Positions 5,088 through 63,523 of a stretch of DNA of 64,000 bases are shown here, piece by piece. The position numbers and the translations under genes were made by a program. Under the pieces are notes generated by a model that worked only from the letters and a program-made list of their open reading frames with translations, made no database searches and was not told the origin of the DNA. How positions within the stretch are numbered: the stretch's first letter is position 1; the number at the start of each line of letters is the position of its first letter. The DNA is taken from NCBI GenBank assembly GCA_900618425.1, contig UZAN01039381.1, positions 106,680-170,679 on the forward strand, read 5' to 3'. The stretch is from Echinostoma caproni. Its lineage: Eukaryota; Platyhelminthes; Trematoda; Plagiorchiida; Echinostomatidae.

Positions 5088-7957
5088 GTAAGTTGTAAAT
5101 TTTTGCATGACAGTTCAATGTGTTTTGATCCAGAGACGATCACTACTTGATGAGTCCCCAGGTTATTGTCTGAGGTTTTAAATAGCAATTAAAATCACCA
5201 TAACGGGAAACTTATCTATATGAAATTGTATTATTTCTGTACTTTGAGAATTATTTACATGTATTAGTTACCGGCGGTAAAACTTCATGACGTACAGGAC
5301 GAACTGTAGCGGCAAATAACAGGAATTCCCAAAAGCAGGTGATTAAATTGGAAATGCTGAAATTTCTCGGTGGACGGCATGATCATACGATAGCCCCTTA
5401 TCGAATTTCAGAACAAATGAGTATATACGAAAACAGCATTTAAAATGAAACTATGAACTCAGATTTTTTAGTTTCTCACAGAAGTCAAACATGTTTTATT
5501 TTTTGTCTTTTACGACTCAACAAATATGCACCCAACCGAAATGATGCCTTAGATGGACAATGGAAACTGGTGGAAAACGAACGAATTTCGCAGTATGATG
5601 TCCGGGAAATAGATTGCACTTGGGCCCTTTAATTTGACTGTTTCACTATCGCCACATCTGATGAATGAGATTTGTGCACACCAGGTGTGCAATAAAATCT
5701 GAAGCGGAATGTCGATTCATGAAATAAATAAAAAAGGGGGACTTGGTGAATAATCAATTACGTATTTCACTGAGGATAAAAATGTCAATTATCTGCTACA
5801 TTTCGACTGCCGTTAAATAAATCAGTGAATTCTAGCTGGATAGCCATATGGCGTTTAGAGGATTAAAGGTTAACCAATGATTCATTTATCTAATGTTTTC
5901 ATTTCACATGAAAGTATAAAGATCCTGTAAACCTTCATTTAGAGATTAAGGGTGTTAGTATTGTAATCACCCCAGAATCATACTGTCAATTTTTGAAATT
6001 ACAACGCATGATAATGAAGCAAAAACCAAGATGAATTTTAGACAAAACTAAAAGCAGCGGTTGCCAGAGGCTGTGAATCGTAAAATGAACAGCTCGACGA
6101 ATCAAAATACACCGCGCATTGAGGTTCCAATCAAAGCTAACGGAATGCAAACAGTTTCAGTTCTTAAGTGCTATCATAATTTGTGTTCCTCGTGCTGAAG
6201 ATGGTTGTCAAATTGGAGGTATTTTAGGATTTGCTTCTCATGCAAAAATGAGCAGGCGGAAGTATAGACAAAAGAAAAAGGTACAAATGAGAGGGTACGT
6301 CTGATTGAGGGATCTGTAGGTACAGAAGAACACAAAAATGGTGATCAGCTCTACAGTACGTATGCATTTTGATCTGTGGTGATGTAAAATGTCGATATTA
6401 TTGTTTATAAACGAAGAGCGTTCAAAAATCAACTTCTACGACGCATCATTCAGTTGTTCCCTATTCTTCTGCCTATCCTACAGGGAGAAGTTGAAGCCAT
6501 CGTTTCGCACGAGCAGGTCCTCAACGTTTTGATTTAACCAAGTGTCTTGTTTATATAAAATAATGTGGGGGAATTATTGTTTCCTCAGAATGGAGGTTAA
6601 ATCCGAAAGCTTTCCGGATAGTGAGGGGATTTCAGGGCTGACCAATGATAACAGTCATTTGGGCTCGAGGGGTGCAAGTAAGTCTGCCATCCGACCGGCA
6701 TGCGTTTTTTGATTCAAGCACCTGTATGAGTTTCACCAAACAAATTAATTGCAAGAAGATCAAACTTCACGATATTCAGTCGGAGTTTGTCCTGACGGGA
6801 ATAATTATAGACCTTGGACATTCTTAACATCGATATACGGACAAAACATTCGGATTCTGCAGCCTCTCTCACAGCGACCGGTAGTGATAAATCAAGTCAA
6901 GAGTGCACTTTATTAGTGCAATGTGGACAGAATTTTCAGTGAAATGAACGTTATCACTTTTGCTTTGGTACCCACGCAATTGAGAAGGACTTTAAAGATA
7001 TGAAAAATAGTTAATTAAAATATAATGAAGAGAACACCGATAACGCGTAAAAAATGAAGAAACTATCAGCATGAAAGTTTACATTAGACTGTGTTTGAGT
7101 TCGTGTGATATTCGTTTCTCTGAAAACCAACAAACATGAGAAAATAGTAAGCGAAAAATAACAATTCAACACAATGATGACATCTGTAATTTACATCTTT
7201 AATTTCATTTTTATAACTATTACTTGTCCTTGTTAAAGAATACCCTGATGCCTTTGAGTGTTTTTATGTATCTTCATTCAATAGAGGAAATATCGGATCT
7301 AAAAAAGAAGACATACTCAATCTTGAAATCCGGCACAAAGTGGCTTGGTCAATATCATTTGGCTTTTTTATTTTATTTTACTTTTGTACAGTCATGATGT
7401 GTAGCAAGATGATCGTCTGTGCTCTCTTATTCCGAGAAGAAACGTCCCCCGATTCACGAAAATCTACAACTGAAACCTGAAGTTGCCTTTCGTAGTGTGA
7501 TGCTCAGGTGGTCCAGAGATTGAATGCGCTTGTACGGGCAATCTTGACCTGTAACGGCAGGAGACATCGCAGTCCTTACAATTGAGCATCACAAATGCTG
7601 ATAATATAACAAGCCTAAAGGGAAATCAACTCTGTCTTTGACTGAACCAGGGATTCAGTAGAATATGGGATCGTTGTTTTTGGTAATGATGGTGCTTGTG
7701 CTCCACTGAATACGACCAACTTAATCTGAACAACTGGAATTATGTTTATCACTGTAAGAGTAAGCAAAGAATACCAATTTAAATGTGGTATTTTAATGTT
7801 TGTCATCTAACAATTAAAACCCATATGCAAGGGCTATACAAGCAATTAGCTGTATCACTTAACGCTTATGACCAGCTTTGACACATGTGGCAGACTTGAG
7901 CTCGAACAAGTGGTTAAAACTGATGTTCCCCCGAAGTTTTGAAACTTGAAATCAGTG

Positions 7958-8145
7958 TCGGGCATCACGAAAGTTTTGTAAATGATTGCGGATCAGCGCG
8001 GTCTGGTGTTTTTCGCCAAAGCACAATTCAATAACATGAGAGGAGTGAGATTGGCGTGAGGTGATTCGATGTAAATGGCGAGCGAAATTCGATCCGATCC
8101 GATTCGATCGGCCGCGTCGCGATCGGAAGAGATACATCCGGTCGG
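7958..8145. other. CpG-dense patch
   Basis: About 22 CpG dinucleotides fall in fewer than 200 bp, in an otherwise A/T-rich, CpG-poor neighbourhood. The densest part (about 8085-8142) is built from repeated GATCCGATCCGATTCGATCGG-like units around CGCGTCGCGATCGG. No domain is recognisable in any frame. It could be a young repeat fragment, a local regulatory element or part of an unrecognised transposon. Confidence 0.4.
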
Positions 8146-10248
8146 GTGAAACTTTTCTTGTATCTCACTAGCATCTACATCCTACATGAAAAATATTGGA
8201 TATTGGGGGTAAAAAGCCCTCGCAGTGGACTTCTTTTACGGAACCCATGAAGCGAAAGACATGATATAATCAGACAGCGTTGTAAAACTATTGCAACATG
8301 TAATAGCTTTTCGTTTATTTCACAAATACATACAATGTGCCTTTTTTATTTTCACGGAGCTGTTCCAAATGATTGGTATACATGCCAGTCGCACAGTGGC
8401 AGAGTATCAATGATAATTAGTCAATTGAAGATGAACAGCTGCAATATGTCAAGGTACAATATAAGTGTTGGACAAATACACATTAGTGTGTGTTTATCTT
8501 CATAGACTTTGTTAAGGCTGTATCAGTTTTATACGACTGGAATTCTATTATTATTTTTGATAGGTTTCCTACCATTTTCATGTGCACAAGTCAGCCACAA
8601 ATGCAACGGATTCAACCAGAAAGCTAATAATCAATGGGGGACACGGTAACTGACGGTTTTTAGCACACGATTGTTGTTGATTGGTCACTATTTCACGCGG
8701 CTCCCAGTACGTATGTTTTTTAGATTGCATTCCATAAAAGCCATTTGTAGGACCGAAAATACTTTCTAACTGTGAATAGGAATTTCGCGACAGGAAGTTG
8801 AGAAACTGCAGCCCAAGGGTACGGGTTTATTAGTTTAGCAGACCTTCCCCGTCTTCTTTGGTTGACTGTTGTGGTTCTCAGGTGACAAATGCAGACATCC
8901 GTCTGAGACCACGACAGTCGTGCAATTCGTGCCAGACTGCTTCATCACACAACTTTCTCACCAGCAGTAGTCCAGAAAATCTAAGTTTTCGTAACCAAAC
9001 TCAGAACGAATTAAAATTAAAAATTATGTATTCCGAGAAACAAAACCAATCAAAAGAGAAGTGAAACTTATTTTGAAAATGCAGTTTTTTTAGTATTAAT
9101 GATTTTAGTTGAGACATAAATAAACTGACAAAAATGGGGTTATCACGGTGTACTATATTTTTTATTACCTAAATTACCTACTACCTAAAGGGGTTATCAG
9201 GTTTTATTGAGAATGACACTTCACAATTGTTTGAAGCAAAGTATATCCACCAAGTTTAAGTCTACTAAAAATACCTTATATTACTAGTCTATAGACTATC
9301 GATTGAAACTTTCTAATAGATGTCACGCAATGTGTCAAATGTTATTGCTCAACTCCCACCGATCTGCAAACGCTTCATCAACCTACATCCATGTCTCAGA
9401 TATCACTCCAAACAATATATCTTTAAAAAAATGATGCTCGTGATGAGAAGCGTATCTAAAAGTATGAGATTGTCAGTGTCACTTCCAGATGCCAAAGAAA
9501 AATATGCTTATTAGATTCGTCATGACAACCAGAAAATTTAAGATGGAAGAATACATTTCTATTTGTAGAGTATATCGTTATGGTTTAGATTAGTGTCAGT
9601 TGGAAGTTACATTGTGTGGAGTGTTTGGAAGATTGTTCTTCGTTGCCTCAAAAAAGATGTAACTCATCAGAATGCTTGAGGCAAAGTAAATTATATTTGG
9701 TTAATGGGCTGTGTAATTGCGATAAAAACTGCATAACCTCCTTAACGCATAGAGACTTAGTGTTTTCTTGCGTTTGAAAAACCCATCTCCAAAGAGAAAA
9801 AAATCAAGAAAACGCAATAACACCTTACTTCCGCCCTATAATTTACTATAATGGCACTATGGATGGCACTTGGCATACTACTTCTGAGCTGACTACCACG
9901 TACAAGACATTCCCTTCCAGAACCAAATACCAAGAGAGTTCATAATTTGTCATCAAACAGTTAATGGATTAGCTATCACACCTAATTTATCCACGTATGC
10001 GTGTTATCCGGTTCTTAATCTTTGTTCACAAGTATCTTCATTTACTTCCTAGGCCTTTTACAATTGTCGTGCCGAAATTCACCCGACTAAACAGTCTTGG
10101 CCGGTAGTGAACCGTCCGTTTTAAGTCCGTTCCTCAGTCAGCATGCCCTTGATAGTAAAAGTTAAATGTTCTAAACAATTATTAAGTTAGTATTCAAACT
10201 GTTATTGGGCAGATTCTAAGTTTGTATGACGATTTTGAAACGGTCAGT

Positions 10249-10329
10249 AGCCTCGGTGGGATTCGAACCCACTCATGAAAGCCGCCTAAGCTTTGTACGC
10301 GCACGCTGTACCAGCTGAGCTACGAGATC
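10249..10329 (-). repeat. tRNA-like SINE head or tRNA pseudogene
   Basis: On the minus strand there is an A-box TAGCTCAGCTGGTA and a B-box/T-arm in which GTGGG and CCCAC pair perfectly around TTCGAAT (10256-10272). The acceptor arms GATCTCG and CGAGGCT pair at four inner positions, with G:T wobbles further out and one A:C mismatch. The D stem has one mismatch. The middle part is about 9 nt too long and forms no anticodon stem, so this is not a working tRNA. It is best explained as the tRNA-derived head of a SINE or as a tRNA pseudogene. No body or tail of the kind seen in the SINE at 3396 is recognisable downstream. Confidence 0.6.
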
Positions 10330-11994
10330 ATACCGACAGCACTGATCTTTTCACATTCGAAGAACACATCCAGTTTACAGAGGAATATGGCATCCGCCAG
10401 GTTGCATGTAAGCTGACTGCCCGGATTACGTGCGAACATCACTGATAGGAAGATATTTCTTGTGAAAACATTGTACGTATTAGGAAATGTAATGCGGTTG
10501 CGAAAAGATCGCTGATTATTCTACTTCAAAAATGGATGAATGTTTATTCAAAATGAAAACACAACTATCCGTGTTCAGCTGATTCAGCTTTACTTGACGT
10601 CTACACAAATCCCTTTTTCGCTTGAATTGCAGTTACCGTATCGTCCTAATTCCCTTGTGTCAAAACATATTTATCTATAATCAACAAGCATGAAAACTGA
10701 TGAAACGACTTACATCTTTCAATAGACCTACAATAACCAAGCATGGTTATATCTCTTAAACATTGAATGAATCAGAAACATGCAAGCGGAAGGCCGCTGA
10801 ACAGCGTGAAGCGCAACCGATTTGCATTTCCTTTCTGATTGGTTGTTTTACCAGGAATTTCCCGTTAAAAAAGACTGGAGACGTCAGTGTTCTTTCCACC
10901 TATGCGTTTGCTAATGTGCTACTGCTGAATGCTTGCGCACACTCTAGCCTCGTTCATGACCGAACATTAAATTCTTGCGCTGGAATCTCTTCAGTATGTC
11001 ACGTTTCAATTTCAACAGTATTTGATTATCAAACTTCTGCGATCCATCCGGATCTTGTGCCTAAATATTAGGCGGCGTTTACAATAACTGCGGAGCAATC
11101 TTGTGGGTTAGTGAAACTGAATTATTCCTACTTTGCTTCATTACAACTAACGAGATTTAAGTCTGATACATAAGCAGTTGTGCTTTGCATAACATCACTC
11201 AGTTGACATAGTTTGTGCGTTCATAGTTGACCCTTCTCAGTCTGTGCCAACAACTGATATTCAACAGCAAGCCGCATTCGTCGTGTTTTACCCATAATTT
11301 AACCTGTGCTCCATATGAATGAAATAAAGCTACCACAAATGTGAAAATTTCACAGGAGAAAAAGGCACAAAGAACTGAAAATGGAGTGACCCATCTTCAA
11401 ACTCCTAAGTGTACTAAACATAGTTATAACCATAGACTTCAATTTTACCTTTTACGTGAAATATTTTTTTCGCTTTCATCTTCTCCTGCAGCCTCATACC
11501 CTTCTCTTAACACATCATTGTTTCACTCAAGCAATTTCACTACAATAATCTCCATCCATTTTGGAGGATCTCTTGCTAAGTAATATCTGTACGGATGGAC
11601 ACCATATACTACAATTACGGTACAAAGGATTTAAATCGTAAAATATTAACATTGATGCATAAAAATAAGGTTGAAGCTTGAAGACAGTTATTTTCGATAT
11701 ATTGCTTTAGGCATTTACATTTATAGTTCGATTAGTCAGTAGAATAAAACAAGGCCTAGGCTGATGTTGAATGGAGTTCTGTGCAAAATGTTTGGTTGAA
11801 AACAAGCTGTGGGATCACGATAATTTGAAAGAAGAAAGCCAAATAAAAATGTGTGAAGTGGATATGAGAGGTATTAGTAAAGAATGAATAAAAACAGGTG
11901 TGAAAGTGTGTGAAAAAAGACAGTAAATGAGAAGCGAGAGAGAGAACAGAAAGTGTCACATAGAAATATGGGTAATTGTTTTTATGGCTATGTT

Positions 11995-13290
11995 AACAGC
12001 AGCGCTCAAACCAGATTACGTTGCTTGTGCAACTTCGGCTTTATGATCCTTATTGCTATAGATTCCACAGCACTTAGGATCTTTTTACGTAATCCTTTGG
12101 TGTTGTTCTTAAGTGCAGTCAGGAAACGTGTAAATGCTGTTTCTGTGTCAATCCTGTGCCCACTGTCGACCAAATGTAGCAGGAATGAGCTGGCCAAGCT
12201 CCTCACTGCTTTTTTTGAAGAGCGGCCGGACAATGTTCAGATATTCTCTTGGACGGACGCCTCGTTGTGTGTCCCACAAACTGAGCACTTCTAGTGCACG
12301 TGAACTGATATAGAACAAAGGATTGCGACTGGTGAGGCAATTTATCCTTAAGCTATTGAACAATGAAAAGCTTTGTTCGCGATGAGAGCCTTAAATGCTC
12401 CGCGGGAAAACGGTTGGCGATGAATCTAGATAGCTGATATTCCAAGATTTCTAATGCCTGTCTCCCTTAAAGGAAACGTTGATAAACAACTCTTTCTTTC
12501 TACCCAGTTGTGTGTTTCATCATCATCATTGTACAGTCTTTGGTTTCAATTCCATATACCGTCGAACAAACGCCTCTGTAAATCCGTTGTTCCTGAGATG
12601 TCTCTTACATAGGTCAGCTCTTTATCCAGGGTTCCCGGACTACAAATTGTCCTTGCCCTGTATGTTACACACCTTACTAAATTACGTTTGTAAATTACGT
12701 ATTGTCCAATCCAAATGCATTTACGGTATACTGCTCGTTCGATATAGCCATTATGTGTACCGCGAAGACAGATATCCAGAAAGGCAATATTTGTCTTTTT
12801 ATATATTCATTGTAAATCGTATATGCAGATGAGCGTTGTCAAAAATTTGAAGTAACTTAATAATGTCCATTTTGGATTCCCAAATGATGAACGTCTTATC
12901 CATATATCTGGTGTATAGATCTAGACTCAGTTGTATTCCTCAATGGTCCTTCTTTGAGCTACCCTAAAAATGTATCTGCCAAGAGAGGGTCAAGCGGTGC
13001 GCCCATTGCTACACCATCCTACACCTGTAATTTGGAAAAACTGATTCAAAATACGTTTAGACCTTGAGACAATTTCAGAATGTGATGTCGCTTAGGTCGT
13101 TTAGTCTTCCTGAGAATTATATGTAGATTTATCTATTCGATGAAAGAAAGGCAAAGGATAAGATAAAATACGTGTCTGGCCGCACGCCCAGCACGTTCAA
13201 TCGGTGTGCACCCGGCTGATGGATCCGGAACTCTGTGGAAGTCGTGTTCCCTCTTTCAAATTGATCAGTTTAGCGCAGCATAACTGTTTG
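11995..13290 (-). mobile_element. decayed Penelope-like retroelement (RT plus GIY-YIG)
   Basis: Read on the minus strand in several frames, the segment contains reverse-transcriptase pieces in the right order. A LPQSSGSISRVH-like stretch lies near 13240 and LNQFFQITG near 13035. DGVAMGAPLDPLLADTFLG (13018-12962) is the Penelope-type motif DGVAMGxPLxPxLA. TRYMDKTFI (about 12905) stands where the catalytic YxDD should be, with the second Asp lost. The fingers/linker region follows (near 12500-12650). Next come the start of a GIY-YIG endonuclease (SFVLYQFTC then QFVGHTTRRLV, about 12330-12240) and its C-terminal part with SAVESIAIRIIKPKL (about 12090-12010). Penelope-like elements encode exactly this RT to GIY-YIG order. 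At least several frameshifts and stops make it inactive. It lies antisense within intron 1. The outer limits are estimates; no terminal repeats were identified. Confidence 0.8.
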
Positions 13291-14158
13291 GAGTGTTCTT
13301 TTTGTTTGACTCATAATCAGGGGAGCGTTCTAAATACTCATAGCTGTTCAACCTATGCAGTCTACAATATGCGGCTCTCAAATTTTGTACGCTGGATGAG
13401 TGCTGTCATTCAGGTGAGAAACAACAATTTGTTTTTCTCTTTTTCACCTGTTTGCTACCTCAAAGTATTCGTTGTCCGTCCGTAGGTGTATTGACATTTT
13501 GAGTAAGTTTTAAGGAGACATTTATTTTACAACCAGCTTTTTGTCTCCATGACGCAATAAACGTCCGTCAAATGTTTGACCAGGCTGACTGTAGGTTTTG
13601 CGAACATCCAAATAAGCTCATTTGGAGGCAAAACGATTTATTAACCTCACGTTGCTCAGTTTTCGCAGCACACTGTGTTTGTCAGAAAATCAACCCGTGC
13701 GGTTTGAAGTGAGATTTAAATATGTGCCTAATGTGTCCCACTAGTAGGTTACTGAGTGTAATCCCCAAGTAATCGGTTGCAACATATAGCCTTTTAGCTA
13801 AAGGTTCATACTGATGATTTACAAGTACGGTCGGTACTATATATGGAGCATTATTTGTGAGAAAGAGTGTATAATATATAGAGACGCAGGATTCCTTCCT
13901 GTATAGTTTTTCAAATCTAAATGAAGCACAAATTTAAAGGCTCAATTACATTCCCAGAACCGGTCTGTCCGAGAAATCCGTCTCATAAAATGTATCTTCG
14001 TCGCTGAGTTACGATAAACAGAATATTCAAAACGGGTTACAACGTTAGTTCTGTCGGAATAAGGTATACTTAGCATATTATGAATGGAACGGGTTATCAG
14101 ACCCATTAGATTCTACTTTTATGGATCCTCAGATCGAATTAAACAATGTGAATTTTGT

Positions 14159-14170
14159 GGGGGGGGGGGG
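14159..14170 (+). repeat. homopolymer run of 12 G
   Basis: Twelve consecutive G bases in an A/T-rich intron. It could form G-quadruplex-like structures and is a likely site of length errors in sequencing. Confidence 0.9.
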
Positions 14171-15046
14171 TATTGCAGAATATTTTATCCACCAGTGTTT
14201 GTTCCCTTGCTTGCTGGTGTTCGGATACAATAGAAGTTGTTCTTTGTGCGACTGTACACACGACCGTATCCATGTGGTTCACGATTCATTGAAATACCTT
14301 CTAATTTCTTCACATCTATGGTCTGTGTATATCAGTATCGAGTAGCTTTATCATCCTCCGGCATGCATCGGAGCCAAAGGTGCATACATTGGCGACACAA
14401 ATTAACCGATTTATAGCACAGTTGCTTCATCAGTTTTGTTCGGAATCGCCATCACTTTATATCCATCAAGCCAGTACCGGCCTAGATCCGACCGTATTGG
14501 ATTTTGAGTTCTCATACGGTACCAGTTGACACCTCGGGCTAGCTTCAACAGTCGAGTTCCTGCTAACACTACTGATGAATCCTTCCAGGGCCGTCAGCGA
14601 CGTTTGTCAGTAATCACACAGACTAAATCATGAATTACAATTTTTCGTTGAAATTATTGTGGATTTCATAAATTAAAGCTGTTTATCTAGTCCAGTATAG
14701 TCAGGTTATCCAACTCTTGAAGTGCCTTCGGTATTTAGTTAAAATTTCGGGTGAATGGTAAAAACAAACTGCGGTTTCGAGTACGGAACATGGATACAAA
14801 GTGTGTAAAATCAATGGCCGTACTCAGAAAAAACCACCAACTACTCAAAGTAAATCAAGGAAGAAAAAGGAAAACGAAACCGTAGTGTTAGAAATTACTG
14901 CCTTTTTACAATGCTATTTTTAATACGGAGAAAATAATTCGCAGGAGATGAGGGATAGACCAGACTTCCTGGCTCCATGGTGACGCCAGCTCCTGCGTTC
15001 AGGTTGATAAAGGCCTGGCCGTTAACCCCTAACAACCACTCCATCG

Positions 15047-15760
15047 TTGAAAACAGTGCAGATGAACCTGTATGCAGATAGATGGAAATTAAAATACAAA
15101 ATGGGGAAATGTTTTATATATGACAGGGAACATAAAAAGAAAATTTCTCAAGGGATTCGAATGATTCTAGTGATTATCAAGTCCGAAAAAATGCGGAGCT
15201 ATCCTTTCGTGAAGCAATTTCGAAGAGGCGGAAACGTGATTCGGTTCACGGATAACCCTGATTGCTTCAAGCTACTTCAGACAATTGACCAGATAACTGT
15301 TCAAGCAGCATGCAACTGCACTACCACTTCTGTACGCGACTGCATGATTCACCATCATCACGGTCTATTCATGCGAATGCGGAGAGGCGAAAAACAACAC
15401 CTTCGCGAAGCGTGTCCAAATCAGACCAGACAGGAGCCAGATGCGCAACACAAACCACTCAACGGATGCTCGTCCCCCGACAAGTCCGTTAACTTGCCAA
15501 TCGATTGGATGCTGTTCACATTCAACGCAAGCATGAAAGATCAGAGACAGAATACTCTGTATTGGATCAACGGTCCCAACTCGGCTACAAAATCGAACAG
15601 CGAGCCGGTTTTTAACGCCCATTCAGCCGGATGTCAGAAGCAAGAAAGTCAATCAACCATGAGTCTAAGATTGAAAAAGGTATTGCTATTTAAAATGCAT
15701 CATCCTGTTCTAAAAATTAAAATTTTGTCCAACACCACTTGTTACAGTCGAAGCAATTAG
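15047..15760 (+). CDS. unrecognised 237-codon ORF, possible exon
   Basis: This is the longest plus-strand open frame in the window and lies in a GC-richer segment inside intron 1. I do not recognise a domain. Residues about 90-125 are rich in Cys, His and Arg (AACNCTTTSVRDC, then a run of four His). Residues 165-215 are polar with NxT/NxS sites. A possible donor, AAAAAG followed by GTATTG near 15679, and several upstream AGs would allow an internal exon of roughly 400 bp, but no partner is known. It is not needed to join Ig domains 1 and 2, which connect well directly. The opposite strand is also partly open here (85 codons at 15365-15622), so base composition alone may explain the length. 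It could be an alternative exon, a separate gene fragment or chance. Confidence 0.25.
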   Translation: MKTVQMNLYADRWKLKYKMGKCFIYDREHKKKISQGIRMILVIIKSEKMRSYPFVKQFRRGGNVIRFTDNPDCFKLLQTIDQITVQAACNCTTTSVRDCMIHHHHGLFMRMRRGEKQHLREACPNQTRQEPDAQHKPLNGCSSPDKSVNLPIDWMLFTFNASMKDQRQNTLYWINGPNSATKSNSEPVFNAHSAGCQKQESQSTMSLRLKKVLLFKMHHPVLKIKILSNTTCYSRSN

Positions 15761-16522
15761 TGGCTGATTTATATTTGGTGGTAGCAGCCATTGAGACATA
15801 ATTTTTGTGATACTAATCTAAGTAGAATAAATCGTGGAGTTACATTTGTAACCTGTTATCCGAGATAGGTTCATTCGATTTTAAGCCCGCCCCCACCCTT
15901 CCCAACATCTGGAATGCATCAGAATCGCGTGAGTTTCACCAATCTTAACGGGTGCAACTCTGATCTCTACAATGGCCTGCTAATAATGCCATAGTTGATG
16001 CATATGAAACTGACCAATTCGACAACAATGACACAAGTCACATTTATTTTCGTTTTCATTCCTTAACTTTTGGATTAGAGGCTCGTAAAACTGGGTTTTG
16101 ATCCTAAAACTGAATATAAAGCATTTTAAATCTGAACACGTATATCAGAATTCGAGCAATGTCGTCAAAATACGGAAGAAACATTAGATCACGTCCGACA
16201 GCGAAAGTTAACATTTTTCAGTCAGGGATCATTAGAATTTGGATAGTCAGAGCCTAAGTTCCAGTAAAGAAGATAAATATTTTTCCCTCTAAAAATATAG
16301 AAGAGGCACCGATTAGGAAGCCAGTGGTATGAGCCTACCAATGCACCCGTTAATGGCTCACCAGAAAGATGAATTGTGATTTGTTGCGTTTCCAAACCCA
16401 AATCGGGATCACCACAAGCACAAGAAATCAGATATATTTCAAGTGAGTAATGGAAAATTTGATTCAATTTCAAAGGTGAATTCGTCGTGTATATAGCAAA
16501 TGAAGCGTGAACTACAAAGCTA

Positions 16523-16572
16523 GGAAGCACTTGACAGCGTTTCGACCTGGTTGGGTCTCATCAGCAGTACGA
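16523..16572 (-). ncRNA. hammerhead ribozyme (type I layout), nearly intact
   Basis: Minus-strand order: the stem I 5' strand, then the core CTGATGA (16558-16564), stem II as GACC and GGTC (perfect 4 bp) around the loop CAACCA, the core GAAA (16540-16543), a very short stem III ACGCTGT (A:T and C:G pairs around GCT), and a GTC cleavage triplet ending at 16533. The downstream AGTGC can pair with GTACT upstream of the core, giving stem I a mismatch only at the first position. All conserved core bases are present. The tiny stem III is typical of retroelement hammerheads, which often work better as dimers. Activity is inferred, not shown. Confidence 0.75.
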
Positions 16573-16668
16573 ATCCATCGACCTAAATGGCGATCGAACA
16601 AGGGACCCCACGGGCAGAACGCTAGTGTGCTACGCACTCGGTCACTGGGCAGCTCATGAGACCATGTT
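16523..16668 (-). mobile_element. tRNA-derived SINE carrying a hammerhead ribozyme
   Basis: On the minus strand an A-box-like TGACCGAGTG (16635-16644) is followed 33 nt later by a B-box-like TTGTTCGATCG (16591-16601), as in tRNA genes. After a further 26 nt comes a complete hammerhead core (16523-16572). The order of pol III promoter then hammerhead is that known for the schistosome Sm-alpha type of SINE. It lies antisense inside intron 1 of the Ig gene, about 1.5 kb before exon B. The 3' end beyond 16523 is unclear, so the element may extend to lower coordinates. Confidence 0.7.
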
Positions 16669-18047
16669 TTCATTTTCCATTTACACGAGATATATTCACG
16701 ATGTATTCACCCTTTAAACCGGATATAGTAAACTTCAGTTGAATAAATATTCCGTTTTATGTTTTCTGATCAAAAGTACTGACAGTTTTCACTTCAGTAC
16801 GTTCAGTTTTCCACAAACAACTGGTACGGCCCATAATGGTCAGACTGAAAATAACTGTAGAGGACGAGCTAAATTTTGGGATATTTTAGACATCTGTCTT
16901 TACCGCATTACTTTTTTGTCGACACGTGTGATATTTGTCATAGCATCATTCAGCTGGATTTGAAAAGTTGTACTTATGCTACTTAGATTATCAAACAACC
17001 ATACATATAGTATTCATAAGTAATTGTAAATGAAATGTTTTCGAGTTGCATTGCGTTCTTCAGGTACGATCATTTGGGAAGGGCAATATCAGTTAATTAA
17101 TTTGAAAACCTCTCGCCGATTAACTGGATAAACTGAATAATATGTCTTTCATTTGGACTAAGCATTCCACCGACATCTTAATTTTGCACAAAACTCAGTT
17201 CACACCGTGAACCATCCAATTAAGACGCATTCGAACTCAGCTCAGTTTCATCCGATCTCCTCAATAATGCTCCTGGTCCGGGATTGGAACTCCTGCTTTT
17301 CGTATCGAAAGTTCCTGTCGTACCTGTATGACAATCATAAGAAATTAAGTTATCGTAGCAGTACAGATTAGTATTTATTTCGTTGCTCCTACCCCCTATA
17401 GTCGTCTATCAGATGTGGACAGAGCAACGACAAAGCATACACCGGATTACTGTACATTGCTCTGGACACAGAGCTATGCCTTGAAATAAGATTAAAAATA
17501 TGCCTATTTGGGAGGTTAAATATTTTATATTTCGACAGCAATAAAACTTCACTAACTCGAATATTTTCGTAGACCTGACCGATTGCGTCGCTGGATACAT
17601 CACGCTACGCTACCATTACTTAACTCTCATTGCGTGTCTTATTGCATCTTCAAAGATAAAAGCAAGTATGATACTTTAGACATGAGAACAGAATATTCCA
17701 TGTATACTCGTGTTTGCCCATACATCCATGTGTATATTCATATATTGACGTTCGTACGTTGCTTGAACCATTCACATAAAATACTAATTCATATTCCAAA
17801 ACCTAATTAGGTTCGAGTACACCGAGAACAGAACCTTTTACATAATGTCATTTCTGTTTATCCTACGTATTGTTTGTTACAGCGTCATTTTACTACATTG
17901 GTAAAATGCCAATTTATTGTTCTTACAATGCCCGTTTCGGGTTCTTTCGCCTACCCACCTCTCTCTCCGTCACTTCGCCCCACAACCCAATCTCTGGTCA
18001 TCATCTCGCACTACACCCAATCGGCCTGTATCATTTCTCATACCGGA

Positions 18048-37800: not shown

Positions 37801-38160
37801 GAATTCAATCGCATGACTAAAAATGTCTTCTACCATGACCCGATGAACTTTTCAATTATTCCAATAATCTTGACTCTGTCCGTCATGTGCCTGTTCTTGA
37901 TTAGCATCCATAGAACATTCACGGCTGACTAGAAGAACTGATGGTCTGGAAGACTTTAAATGCACATCAACACTCAATTAGTTTGTAAACGATAGACAGT
38001 CAACTAACTATATTTGCCAACTAAGTCCTCATCCACATCAAATGTGATATGCCTGTTGCGCGTTTATGTAATCTTATTGATTAGAAAATGCAGTTATCGA
38101 AAATGAACTTGTTCACTACAAAACTCATGAAATTATTCTTCCCCTTTTCTCTCCGTCCAG

Positions 38161-38535
38161 CACCTCCAATTGTGGTCACCAACAGATTTGTATATGCTCG
38201 CATTGGACAATCGATCAGGCTGCATTGTGAAGCAGTGGCCAACCCACCGGTAACTAGAATATTTTGGGACAGAAATTCGTTGCAGTCGGACAGCAAAATC
38301 ACACACCCCGGTTTACTGTTTCCATCACAATTAAACGACAGTGAATCCGTGTACCGACCGGACATCACAAATCGACAGGAGCCTCAGTACTGGTTTAGCC
38401 CAACTCTGCAAATCAACTCCATCACACAGGAAGATGCAGGCACATATCGATGTGTGGCAGAGAATACCGTACATGGATCCGGTGACCAGCCAGTGCCCCG
38501 GAGAGGTGAAGACTTTTCCACCATTTATGTTTATT
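38161..38535 (+). CDS. Ig-superfamily protein, exon D (complete Ig domain 3)
   Basis: The exon is 375 bp and phase 1 to phase 1. The acceptor CCCTTTTCTCTCCGTCCAG is strong and the donor GTAAGT starts at 38536. It encodes about 125 residues that form a whole I/C2-type Ig domain. The lead-in PPIVVTNRFVYARIGQ is followed by the B-strand cysteine in IRLHCEAVANPP, the C-strand tryptophan in RIFWDRN, and the LQINSITQEDAGTYRCVAEN signature carrying the second cysteine. The tyrosine-corner pattern D-x-G-x-Y-x-C is perfect. The loop between the C and E strands is longer than usual (about 45 residues) and has a possible glycosylation site (NDS). The last T plus AT of exon E gives Tyr in the linker VYYPPEQP. 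This is the best-supported exon in the window. Confidence 0.92.
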
Positions 38536-41500
38536 GTAAGTGTTTGGTTTCTTAAACGCTCCTGCCTCTTTGGTTGATATCCAATGGGTCTTCACATATT
38601 CTACGAAATTTCCGAAATGTTCAGCTATAATATATTGTCTAATCTGAAATATGGCATTTTAAGCCGTTGATTTGTGACAGCGAAGAAACCTGGAAAATAT
38701 GTTAGGCATATCTTGGATATAGTTTTATTGTGCTTCATAATGTCTAGGGATGAGTGAGTATTTGAAAACACCAACAGATTTCTGTTTCAACAACCACTGG
38801 AAAATATCAATGTTCCAAAGTAAACGTTTAAAATATATCACTCAGTATCGTCAAGACAGCGAAACGTCATGCATTTCAATAAAAAGCAACACATAGAGAA
38901 AGAATTGAAATATAATCACTGCGTGTAGAAAAATACCATAAACAAGTTTTGAAATTCACAACTTATTTAAGTTGTCCAAAGCGATTCATTTCAAATTCAG
39001 TTATATTCATAAACTGGGAACATACAAAGCCCATAGAAGAAATCTTACGAGCTGTTTCAATAATGTATGACGAAATTCCCGGTGTTAAGAGTCAAGCACG
39101 GAAGCACTTCCTGCTGTTCGGTTTCATCGGCTTTGCAGATTTATCAACAAAATTAAGTATCTCATAATTTGGATTTCATAATGGAGATGCAAACATACTA
39201 CTAGTCTGGCCACCGAACGGGTAATTGTAACACGTGGCCTATATAGGAATTTGCATAAAGTGGTTTCCTAGTGATAAAGAGCTTCAGTTCAATGAACTTA
39301 CAATGATTTGATCTGATCGGAACCAAAACGAGATATGAACTTATGAAACCGGAGTTTCTATCGTATATAACCACTTACCAAGTTTTTTTCTCAGAAAAAG
39401 TGCGGTGTGTTTGATGGTAATTTGAAACTACTCTGTTGTCACCCATGGACCCTTGTCCTTCTCATCAAATTCTATATATGCTATCTCACGACCTTAACAC
39501 CCACCGAGCCCCTGGGTTAGTGAATGCTTCCGGAAGATTAACGCTAACACAATCGCCCTAATACTTTTGCAAATATTTCTTTCATCAAGAATTAAAATGT
39601 GACCATTACAGGACTCTTCTCCAGTTGTCTTTTGAGCACATCGTGTCAAAATATGTTTGTCAACGCTAAACCGTTTTACGAGACTAGTACTGAAAAAAGG
39701 TTCCCTGTCGCAAAGAGAAACAACCTCTTCCAACAATGACGAATTTTTCGAATTAAGTGGATAGAAACCAATACACAAGAAAGAAGAGTCTGCCTATTGA
39801 ACTCATGTCTAACACGAAACGAGGGAAACTGGGCTCTCCTCAAGTTAGAAAAGTTCACCAATAAAAAGCATTGGTAATCGAGCACACTTAGCGCCGCCTT
39901 GCTTTCAACAACCGAAAGACGAAGTTCATTGAACGTGGAAAGGAATCGTTTAAACTAAAAACAGTTATCAACACGGAGCTCACCTCTGTCATTCGGAAAC
40001 AACTGATCCATTAAAACAAAGCAGATTGAAAAAAAATAACAGGAAACATAGCCGGTGCTTTTGACTACTTCTGACTGCTGTAGATTATGCTCATCATTGG
40101 TTAAGTTGAAACCGATTGACCCACAGTTTGAGTTCTGTACCGGTGGTTTACTGAATTGCAGATATGAATATCAAGTCCATCAATTCCAGATAAAGAGAGT
40201 TCTGTAATCTGTGTGTACTACAAGTACGAATATGTATGAATCAGTAAGGTCCCATTGATAGAAGCGGAGTGTATAACGTCAAGCAGTAACGTTTACGTAC
40301 TAGTCTTCAAAAGGGTGCTTAAATTGTACAAAAATAGCTGCAGTTAGACAATGGATCACCAGTCAGAGTAACTTGGTAGTGAAGGTAGGGTATTTGTCGA
40401 CACAGTCTCGCCTTCAAAAGCGAACAAGATATAACGATAGGCGAAGTGGATTAACAGGGTAAACGATTATCTCACTATTAAATTAAGCGACCAAGGAACT
40501 AAGGAGCGGCACGATACTACGATAATAAATAGCACGGGGAAGACAAACAGTCAACGTAAACCAGATGGAATGAAGATTGTGATCCTCACAACATAGAGAA
40601 GACATGGAAACAAAGAAATGTAAGCATCAAAGGATAGGCAAATAATTGATGTATATCCAGGTGCGGTGACGATTAATTTGTCTATGTATTAGGGTAGATG
40701 TACACGGTCAAAACCAGGGTCAGTTGTGGTTCTCGGGAGTTATGCAGAAGATTTCGGAAGTCATTTGAATAGACCAAAACACTGTGTGCAATATCTGTCT
40801 TCACTAAATTCCTAAGCGGTATTAAGCATCCTTTTTAAGGCTATTAGAAAAGAGCTTTCAAGTTACTCAATAACATTTGCAAGGAAGTTTCTCATAGGTA
40901 TTTCAAAGCTATTACGTAAATAAAATGCGATCTATTTTGGCATGGGATGGAAGCTCATTGTACCTGAACAGGAAGTTACCATATCGATGAATGAGACACT
41001 GAATGTCAGTGCATATGCAAAAATGTGAAGACAACCTTCTGCGTACGATTGGACTTGAGTGAGAAGCTCCAACTCTGCATGAATCCGATAAGGTAGGTCA
41101 TATATAAACGGTGATGAACGTTGGAAGCGTATGACTTGATCCTTAGTTCAGTGCTTGTGCACTCAAACAGTACTTTCCAATAATACATGGTATCAAAAAC
41201 ACATGACTGTATGTCACTTGATGTTTAGTTAGTGTCCCATTTCCTATTCATGTCAACATTTATCATTGTGGTCACACAGTTCTATTTTATCACAGAGTCC
41301 AGTCTATCTCTCATTTGAGAAATGCTTGTAATGAGGAAGAACAGAAACACAACATGCAGCTAAATTTTCACAGTTTTTGCTTGCAAGAGAATCCACGCTA
41401 TTAGTTATCTGTTTATTTGCCCTCTAAAGGAAGACATGCGGTAAATAAAACACACTTCACTGCATTGCAAGGACAACCACAAAGAGTGTCCACGCCAATA

Positions 41501-55200: not shown

Positions 55201-56715
55201 CAAAGATATTGCTTGCTGGTCCGTAAAATGCATAAAAACGGCTATTTATGTTGTACTTCACCATAGTTATATCACCAATAATACGATATTCTGTCAGCTT
55301 CAGCATCCTGCCGATCACTGCGAGGTCATGCGAGGTCTTAGGTGGTCTAAATTTTGAGCGAATTTCAAAATCCTGTTTGTTGACAATTGCCCACATGACG
55401 AAGGCAATGCAAATGTAACCTAATATAAGGATATTTTGGCATTGAATCCGATAATTCTGTGGTTTTCTTTGAGCATAGAGCAAAGGACGGATAAAATGAA
55501 ACTTTAGGAGCAAGGGCGTTGCTGTGACCATCTTTCTGGTTTACAGCAGCAACAGCCCAAGAATCCATCGGTTCAACTGAGGACCTTGAATTTGGCTGCA
55601 GTACTCGTAACAAACCGATAACGAAATAGCTTGTGCTATACCTCTTATAGGTAAAATGAGAAGAAAAGCAGTCTTATCAGCTGCAGTCAAGTGAATGGTT
55701 TGCCTGCATTCTACCTGCAAGGCCCCGGGTTACATGCCTAATTAGGTCGATGGCTTTGCACTGCTAATAATGACCAAATCAGATCGACATAACTAAACAG
55801 TTTTTCAGTCATTTCTTCGTTTACTGATCGTAAAATGAAACTCATCGTGGAGAGAATCATCCCATCGGTCAGCAATGTATCTACTTCAAATGAACCCATG
55901 GGTTGTAATGGACTACAGTATGAAAGACGAATTGCGAATAACGCTTGCGGATTACAAAACGGTCTCAAAAGGTAATTTATTTTGCAATGAAGACGCTCGC
56001 TCGCATCCAGACAGTCTCTCTGGACGGAAAACTTCAGTCTGGGGTTGAATTTGCCTCTGAAATTCGATACTCCATAGCTCTAACTGAACGGGAGAAAAAA
56101 TGATCTAAATTCTATTTAACCCAATAGGAAGTACGGTTGGAGAATAATGGAATACGTTGTTTGTATGTAAACAGTGAGTTGCGCAGCAAGATATTGAGTA
56201 ACCTAAACGCTTCTCCAAGGATTCAAAATCACCGAAGGAGCATAAAGAAGTCCGTAACATGCGAAGATTATATATTGCTAGTTTGTTAATTTCCTTTTTT
56301 GTCCATTCTGCAGCCGTTTCCATTGAGCTCTCTGTTTTGCGTTTACTTATAATGACTTTATATCAAAACCAGGAGGTTTGAATCTTGGTAACTAAATTTA
56401 TTGACCAAATTAGATTGAGAAATGTTGATACTTTTCAGAAATTGGTAACACAATAACAAATGTTGCTCATCTTTGCAGTTTTCCCAGTTTATCAAAAAAT
56501 AATTTTACCCTTGATAGAGGCTTTCATTACTTTCATTACTTTTACTTTTATGAACGTCAGGTAGAAAGAAGTCACTTAATTGTTGCCAATATGTTATTTA
56601 TGACCAAATGTGAAAGTGGATAGACTCTGCCTTGTTCTTAACTCAGATACGGTAAAAATACACGAGTAATAATTATCCCTGAATCTTATGAATGTGGGTT
56701 TTACATATGAAAAGG

Positions 56716-62592: not shown

Positions 62593-63456
62593 TCAAAGAC
62601 TTCGAACTTCCTTGTATCTTGTATTCTTAGTGGCCAGTTTTACAGCCATAAGTGAGGATGAGGCGGATGGAAGCCTGATAGACTCGAAGTTTATTTCGCA
62701 TCGATTCCACAACGGTTCGAGGAGTTGTCGGAAGGCTCTTCTAGCTTCATCTACACGGAGTTGGATTTCATCCTTAGCCTGGCCGTTTGGACTCATCGTA
62801 GAGCTAAGATTCTTGAAAACTTCGGTTGATTCAACAGACTCCCCGTTAATCAAAAGGGGTTGTGTCATGGTAGAAGTTTCGGTGGAAAATGTCTTCGTTT
62901 TCGACGTGTTGATCTCCAACCCAATGGACCGGGCAAACTGATTTATACGACTGACAATAGGCTGGAGGTTGTCCATGCTGTCTTCAAGTACAATGACATC
63001 ATCCGCAAACTCGAGGTCCACAATCCATGTACCCGGGCCAAGCTGCACTCCAGGGTAGTTGATGAGTGCTTGTCGCATTATCCAATCTACGGTGTACTTG
63101 AATAACACCGGCGATAGTGGACAACCTTGCCTAACTCCGGAACTTAGGGTAAACTCAGCCGATTCTTCTCCATAGGTACGGACGCGTGTCCGGGTTCCTG
63201 AGTAGTATGACTTTAAAAGCCTGATGAACTTCTCAGGTATCCCATCAGACCGCAATATGCACCACAAGGATTCTCTATCGGCAGCGTCAAACGCAGCGCG
63301 GAAGTCAATGAAACATGCATTGGTAGGCTGTTGAAACTTGTAGAGGAGTTCCAGAATTCTACGGAGAGTGAAAATTTGTTCAACACAGCCTTGGTCCGGG
63401 CGAGGGTGTGTAGCCTTGACAACTGCGAAGCGATTAGGTAGCATCACTGCAAGCAA
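62593..63456 (-). pseudogene. reverse transcriptase fragment of the LINE
   Basis: The open frame has 287 codons. It holds FIDFRAAFDAADRESLW (residues about 49-65, first catalytic Asp), SGVRQGCPLSPVLF (about 106-119) and LEFADDVIVLED (about 148-159) with the catalytic FADD intact, followed by the thumb-like INTSKTKTFSTE. The sense frame also extends upstream of the first Met (CENHRGISLID), so that Met is not a true start. The RPDQGCVEQ junction (residues 20-26) lacks about seven residues that relatives carry between these blocks. After about residue 268 the frame leaves the conserved path: LLPYGCKT-like and WPLRIQ-type continuations are found in the other two frames. The fold is well supported, but the protein is not functional in this copy. 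Confidence 0.88.
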
Positions 63457-63523
63457 TTTGGCCGCAATATCAATCAGGCTAATACCCCTGTGATTTTCGC
63501 ATCTAGATCTGTCACCCTATTTT

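Follow-up and report, generated by a model that had tools for sequence, protein, structure and literature searches.

The window analysed here is a stretch of 64,000 nucleotides from the trematode Echinostoma caproni (contig UZAN01039381.1, positions 106,680 to 170,679), which carries on its minus strand a copy of a SINE with a type I hammerhead ribozyme motif. This SINE belongs to one of three families in the genome, here termed A, B and C. Positions within the 363-nt unit of family A are given with the prefix u, where the first base after the ribozyme cleavage site is u1; the reference unit was cut from locus L167. The features of the window that bear on the SINE and on its possible mobilising partner are as follows.

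16439..16687, minus strand: 5'-truncated copy of the hammerhead SINE, family A, 249 bp (BLAST u204 to u98, 85% identity)
16688..16696, unstranded: target-site duplication on the 5' side of the element, AATATATCT in the minus-strand reading (direct repeat)
16430..16438, unstranded: target-site duplication on the 3' side of the element, AATATATCT in the minus-strand reading (direct repeat)
About 16634..16644, minus strand: A-box-like part of the tRNA-derived head, placed by eye (unit A box, u251-261)
About 16590..16600, minus strand: B-box-like part of the tRNA-derived head, placed by eye (unit B box, u295-305)
16527..16570, minus strand: type I hammerhead motif, cleavage predicted between 16533 and 16532 (RF00163, 34.5 bits)
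16439..16469, minus strand: optional 3' tail of 31 nt, corresponding to u64-94, which is AC-rich in the young unit (77% identical to the tail there)
55631..55809, plus strand: second family-A copy, strongly decayed and with a mutated core (67% identity)
17147..17334, minus strand: weak remnant of a family B hammerhead SINE (nhmmer 22.5 bits, E 5e-6 in 264 kb)
12233..12352, minus strand: remnant resembling the GIY-YIG part of the genome's Penelope-like elements (tblastn 41% over 41 amino acids, E 4e-5 in the fetched set)

A first-pass annotation of this DNA had described a hammerhead with a complete conserved core and had proposed a covariance search as a check. The Rfam type I hammerhead model RF00163 matches 16527-16570 with 34.5 bits against a gathering threshold of 34 (E 7.4e-5 for the entire window against all Rfam families), and up to E 5 no other hammerhead place is listed for the window once one lower-scoring overlapping match of the same clan is set aside. 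Allowing up to 3 mismatches, a pattern derived from the motif occurs once in the window and in none of 100 shuffles. The covariance match, the single place in the window and the empty shuffles together establish that the motif is real. All three core pieces lie on the minus strand (CTGATGA at 16564-16558, GAAA at 16543-16540 and GTC at 16535-16533), and the 4-bp stem II is present as GACC/GGTC, both as originally described. Stem I had been called mostly paired, and GTACTG/AAGTGC does form five pairs, but one of these is G-U and a G.A mismatch adjoins the cleavage site; the corresponding stem in the family copies is GCACTG/CAGTGC. Stem III, ACGCTGT, is one base short of the family sequence ACAGCTGT. 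Judged by this mismatch beside the cleavage site and by the missing stem III base, the ribozyme of the window copy is damaged and the copy is a marginal one.

The copy covers about u209 to u94 of the unit and is 85% identical to the young 363-nt unit, i.e. about 15% diverged, from which it is taken to be old. It is flanked by a target-site duplication of 9 bp, and its tail is well above chance resemblance to the young tail: among 400 random stretches the maximum identity was 68% and the 99% point 65%. No tRNA is called in the head of this copy, where the boxes are recognised by eye only. The copy had also been placed within an intron, a claim that found no support: three-frame scanning of the plus strand from 6501 to 16499 returned no Pfam family, and the sole plus-strand coding exon located is an Ig-domain exon at 38085-38552, for which the best-scoring solved structures are contactins.

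The genome that was searched for further copies, as the annotation had also suggested, comprises 426.5 Mb in 12,689 contigs. The open pattern CTGATGA-N(5-25)-GAAA occurs 18,247 times (8,904 + 9,343), compared with 3,734 times for the same pattern read backwards, whilst the strict family-A core CTGATGAGACC-N6-GGTCGAAA has 954 occurrences genome-wide (458 + 496) and none when read backwards. Families B (GCTC/GAGC) and C (GTAC or GTCC/GGAC), which have other tRNA-like heads and other stems, were recognised among the copies caught by the open pattern. A DNA search with the window copy gave 1,523 candidates, of which 40 were scored; among these the non-self matches are 84-86% identical, many with equal scores. 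By contrast with the window copy, 8 of 12 fetched places (L167 among the 12) are 99-100% identical to the L167-derived unit over their main segment, and family A is therefore considered to have been active recently; the window copy is confirmed as an old, decayed member of it. With RF00163, young copies of the 363-nt unit reach 49.9 bits. Across 16 further loci this model gave 10 matches in 9 loci (40.1-49.9 bits), and the 7 loci that fell below gathering were L133, L127 and all five family-B loci scanned. A freely varying core had been named in the annotation as a refuting observation. The core is kept in 11 of the 12 young loci, with L178 having GAGA in place of GAAA, and old copies vary in the core, as in the second copy of the window at 55631-55809, which is as expected of dead SINE copies. 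Most other copies were picked by the core pattern, so that their invariance in the core arises by construction.

Support for the ribozyme fold was also sought in an alignment (A1) of 26 hammerheads from families A, B and C. In this alignment 92.0% of cells are paired, compared with 17-39% for slid structures; 23 cells are changed on both sides, compared with 5.9 in shuffles, and the covariation score is 0.273, compared with 0.127 (neither reached in 500 shuffles). There was no excess in the number of pairs showing two-sided change (5 against 4.0 in shuffles, 163/500) or in further pair types (13 against 12.3, 216/500). In stem I the double changes affect the two innermost pairs, mostly as G-C to A-U; in stem II they affect two pairs and in stem III the third pair. 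The 26 sequences were hand-picked from 45 copies, each of which had to have an intact core and no fewer than 3 of the 4 stem II pairs. This selection partly accounts for the invariant core and for the paired share of stem II, but not for the compensatory differences between families. That the motif is hammerhead-like by chance, as a window score only 0.5 bits over gathering could suggest, is scarcely credible in view of the E value of 7.4e-5, the 954 family cores set against none backwards, the 49.9 bits of the young copies and these compensatory changes.

The organisation of the unit has been defined from the young copies. Its two alternative ends lie at u63 and u94, the A box at u251-261, the B box at u295-305 and the ribozyme from u325 round to u6. 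A tRNA-type head in front of a type I hammerhead had been claimed for this locus, and this is borne out both by the boxes upstream in the window copy and by young copies, where ARAGORN calls tRNA-Gln(CTG) in 4 of the 6 scanned family-A loci of the 12 fetched places; no tRNA-Gln was called in ten other loci (two older family-A loci, L127 and L130, and eight of families B and C). The unit has no reading frame of its own for a reverse transcriptase (RT) or GIY-YIG nuclease, as 363 nt leaves no room for one, and it is not itself a Penelope-like element (PLE). Stem III is the 8-nt palindrome ACAGCTGT in young family-A and most family-C copies seen, and from its sequence it could pair between two molecules, although whether such pairing takes place is a matter of inference. 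The suggestion that the ribozyme acts as a dimer is hence plausible for the family, whilst the window copy has lost the palindrome by deletion.

The layout had been likened to that of schistosome SINEs, and with good reason. Like Sm-alpha and Sj-alpha, the SINE described here has a type I hammerhead after a tRNA-derived head and thousands of copies. The S. mansoni SINEs similar to Sm-alpha are traced to tRNA-Gln-TTG in the part of PMC2770079 that deals with them, and the young heads here read as tRNA-Gln(CTG). The annotation had noted a different stem II and loop; stems I, II and III and the loops depart from the Rfam consensus, the unit is 363 nt, and the likeness seen to Sm-alpha is one of layout. 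PLE-type insertion marks, which are present in the SINE here, go unmentioned for Sm-alpha and Sj-alpha in that part of PMC2770079.

It is this insertion grammar, missed in the earlier annotation, that is the most informative feature of the family. Most copies with a placeable end stop near u63 or near u94, i.e. about 63 or 94 nt past the cleavage site, and the 31 nt between the two ends constitute an optional tail. The A+C content of the unit is highest in the part that holds the tail (74% compared with 50%; rank 11 of 363 windows, the richest starting at u69). The 5' ends are variable. L171 starts at about u59 and L175 at about u27, and both run round the unit to u94. They thus take in sequence from upstream of the promoter, for which the RNA must be multimeric or circular. 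L167 carries two units with cleavage sites 363 nt apart inside one 12-bp target-site duplication. With one hammerhead per unit it has the tandem structure by which a non-LTR retrozyme is recognised, most of the fetched copies being other than full tandems. Exact direct repeats of at least 9 bp surround 9 of 36 inserts, compared with 0.5% in mismatched flanks, and 27 of the 36 have no duplication of 9 bp or more. Examples are the single insert L173, which ends near u63 (13 bp), the tandem L167, the window copy, and the inverted inserts L137 (13 bp), L178 (12 bp) and L180 (11 bp). The insert counts leave out five loci that each duplicate another (L176, L163, L166, L164 and L120), the open-pattern loci L113-L119 and the PLE or GIY-YIG loci L193-L196; the duplication count also leaves out L197, stretches whose matches are below 100 nt and inserts that come within 25 nt of the end of their locus.

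Many inserts consist of two arms in a head-to-head orientation. Twenty-three of these were found, 17 complete and 6 flagged as running off the fetched stretch. When the tail was recognised by up to 4 errors in 18 letters (a rule that matches 32 of 4000 random 100-nt windows), it was present on exactly one arm of 12 complete inserts, on both arms of none and on neither arm of 5; the cut inserts had one tail in 2 cases and none in 4. By unit coordinates, 12 of the 17 complete pairs end in the windows of the two sites (u50-72 and u86-104), and all 12 are mixed, for which the chance is 0.0015 given 12 short and 12 long arms; over all 17, the chance of there being no two-tailed inserts is by itself 0.10. 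In the remaining five (L143, L181, L183, L184 and L192) at least one arm stops elsewhere. The sample was not random, since several inverted loci were fetched for two closely spaced cores, and the inverted share is consequently no estimate of frequency; we see no reason why picking by close cores should affect the one-tail rule. There is one doubtful tail-to-tail case (L186), and head-to-head matches are also found in 3 of 8 strong family-B loci (L122, L141 and L160).

These structures bear directly on how the SINE is likely to have moved. Many copies end in inverted repeats, as would a foldback or MITE-type DNA transposon with terminal inverted repeats and a built-in hammerhead, yet arm lengths and junctions vary by copy, single-arm and tandem copies exist and the duplications range from 9 to 13 bp, which makes such a transposon very improbable. 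A more familiar route would be that of an ordinary tRNA-derived SINE moved by a LINE, with the inverted copies due to twin priming and the hammerhead incidental. It is generally known that a tRNA-like head and duplications of 9-13 bp are usual for LINE-moved SINEs, and the window itself contains a non-LTR-type RT fragment (62596-63516). However, 12 of the 17 complete inverted inserts share the 3' region on both arms, which end near u63 on one arm and near u94 on the other, and in twin priming from a single linear RNA the inverted part would be an upstream one; some copies, such as L171 and L175, include u95-u250 upstream of the promoter, which is absent from a linear one-unit Pol III transcript; and a choice between two ends some 30 nt apart has been published for Penelope elements. 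A LINE-driven origin is accordingly regarded as unlikely.

Penelope-like elements themselves are present in this genome. Five GIY-YIG places over the cut-off were returned, of which those on C7900 (locus L193), C4470 (L195 and L199) and C4019 (L197 and L198) are mutually close and clear PLEs; that on C155 is a distant relative, and that on C8570 has no match to the PLE protein. P0139, a relative of the L193 protein, combines RT, GIY-YIG and PF26215, and C4470 has an RT with a YVDD motif plus a GIY-YIG part. The inverted arms of C4470 stop 70 and 134 nt past its own hammerhead-like GTCGAAAC(A/G)TC site within a 12-bp target-site duplication, giving a tail of 64 nt as compared with 31 nt in the SINE. 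With its two ends, inverted arms and duplication, this autonomous element therefore shares its insertion grammar with the SINE in one genome. A duplication was looked for at L193 and none was found. On C4019 the 3' part of a PLE joins directly onto a SINE unit that starts at u63; the junction is either a template switch or an insertion, and it is given little weight because a run of N follows. Besides this junction no sequence similarity was found between the SINE and the few PLEs fetched and compared, the initiation region included. The hammerhead region of C7900, C4470 and C4019 reads TTGATAAAGGCC or TTGAAAAAGACC ... GGGTCGAAA, a core that departs from CTGATGA, and these PLE hammerheads are possibly inactive or atypical.

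A published counterpart of these structures is found in Penelope and Poseidon elements, which likewise show partial tandems, inverted head-to-head arms, an optional tail and target-site duplications, as described in sections of PMC3846280 and PMC11167929, along with internal initiation downstream of the hammerhead. Indeed the account of bdelloid Penelope elements in PMC3846280 includes partial tandems and inverted head-to-head pLTRs, duplications of 8-10 bp in the cases shown, and a 31-bp tail that is optional on one inverted pLTR; across the relevant parts of the two sources the optional tail is put at 31 bp or 30-40 bp. The SINE is unlike these elements in that it has no ORF, a canonical and not a minimal hammerhead, and a Pol III type head. 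A PLE protein from Anolis has been shown to cut and extend both strands, with synthesis starting inside the RNA at two sites, the interval between which is the tail (PMC11167929). Counted from the beginning of the ORF, the hammerhead of that element cuts at 26 nt and synthesis mainly starts at 111-118 nt (PMC11167929), which by arithmetic gives a cut-to-start distance of 85-92 nt as compared with 63 and 94 nt in the SINE. RNA well beyond the start site is required, and no difference in start site between the strands was seen in vitro (PMC11167929).

Read from the insertion structures, the family is probably an Sm-alpha-like or retrozyme-like, tRNA-Gln-headed hammerhead SINE mobilised by Penelope machinery, and the Penelope-type structure of its insertions appears well supported by the arrangement of the copies. 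RNA polymerase III would transcribe the SINE from its A and B boxes, and the hammerhead would cut multimeric transcripts into units, perhaps joined to circles, as the retrozyme literature would suggest. A Penelope-like RT/GIY-YIG nuclease would then insert the RNA, with synthesis beginning internally on one or both target strands; the insertion structures place this start at either of two putative sites 31 nt apart, downstream of the ribozyme. Insertion of this type would explain why there are two 3' ends and variable 5' ends and why partial tandems contain upstream sequence, and likewise the one-tailed head-to-head arms and the duplications of 9-13 bp. Weighing against this reading are the 5 of 17 complete inverted inserts that depart from the one-tail rule, the 27 of 36 inserts with no duplication of 9 bp or more, the 64-nt tail of C4470, the failure to find similarity between the SINE and the fetched PLEs outside the C4019 junction, and the equal treatment of the two strands seen with the Anolis protein (PMC11167929). 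The ribozyme may contribute by cutting multimers and closing circles, which would supply an RNA that extends to either side of the internal start, something that a monomeric copy ending at the start site could not by itself do. In the Anolis element, hammerhead mutants had no effect on insertion in vitro and uncut RNA was the main substrate (PMC11167929), and this insertion without cleavage speaks against a necessary role for the ribozyme.

The family might also be viewed as a non-LTR retrozyme with a circular RNA that is served by some other RT, in which case the Penelope-like marks would be common to any circular template. The likeness to metazoan non-LTR retrozymes is considerable, as units of a few hundred nucleotides, type I hammerheads, tandems and duplications above 4 bp are among the properties given for these in part of PMC7229834, where LINEs and PLEs are both left as options. 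They differ from the SINE here, which has a recognisable tRNA-type head and visible marks of the mobilising enzyme, and whose sampled copies are single, inverted or short tandem; animal retrozymes show no conserved motif that betrays their partner, according to the section of PMC7761336 on this subject. A circular template alone explains neither the two fixed ends nor the one-tailed inverted arms, and the PLE C4470 of the same genome has the same structure, so that a partner of another kind seems distinctly unlikely.

Under the preferred reading of a Penelope-mobilised SINE, these observations reach beyond one locus. Neither PMC7761336 nor PMC7229834, in the parts that discuss it, settles which element mobilises the hammerhead SINEs and retrozymes of animals; in the latter PLEs are called a strong candidate on account of shared hammerheads, tandem copies and host genomes, with LINEs also left open. 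Among the matches listed in a search of open-licence PMC titles and the starts of abstracts, none describes insertions of this kind for hammerhead SINEs. Resolving the insertions to the base makes the partnership with PLEs a testable claim with exact initiation sites, and if it is true, a tRNA-headed SINE would depend on the Penelope class and not on LINEs. Whether the hammerhead SINEs of Echinostoma caproni, and perhaps Sm-alpha and animal retrozymes generally, are non-autonomous partners of PLEs is a wider proposition to which we would give an even chance.

Several other sequences were encountered alongside the SINE. Relatives of it were looked for in viral contigs, where 94 stretches had hammerhead-like cores and none had the SINE body pattern, and in a genome contig collection, where 18 stretches had such cores and none was related; in BLAST, the SINE matched these 112 loci at the ribozyme core and, at E 6.6, in a few scattered short stretches. 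One of the loci, L104, had a eukaryote-like appearance, but its context is read as bacterial coding sequence. A repeated hammerhead-like motif, CTGATGAGACCTAMTGAGGTCGAAACATTGAGCAG, is present in several IMG/VR contigs (L010, L011, L013 and others). The RT fragment on the minus strand of the window at 62596-63516 (RVT_1, E 2e-23) has relatives in Spirometra, Sparganum, Schistocephalus, Opisthorchis and Dicrocoelium, and in one nematode; it was rejected as the partner of the SINE, its named relatives being mostly flatworm RT proteins and none being listed with GIY-YIG. Finally, a tRNA-like element lies on the minus strand of the window at 10247-10329 (Rfam tRNA 30.7 bits; ARAGORN tRNA-Cys, anticodon aca). 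By eye it resembles an inverted head-to-head pair at 1381-1657 of L195, the arms of which are 83% identical and which has no hammerhead core, and the two are possibly members of another SINE family with Penelope-type inversion.
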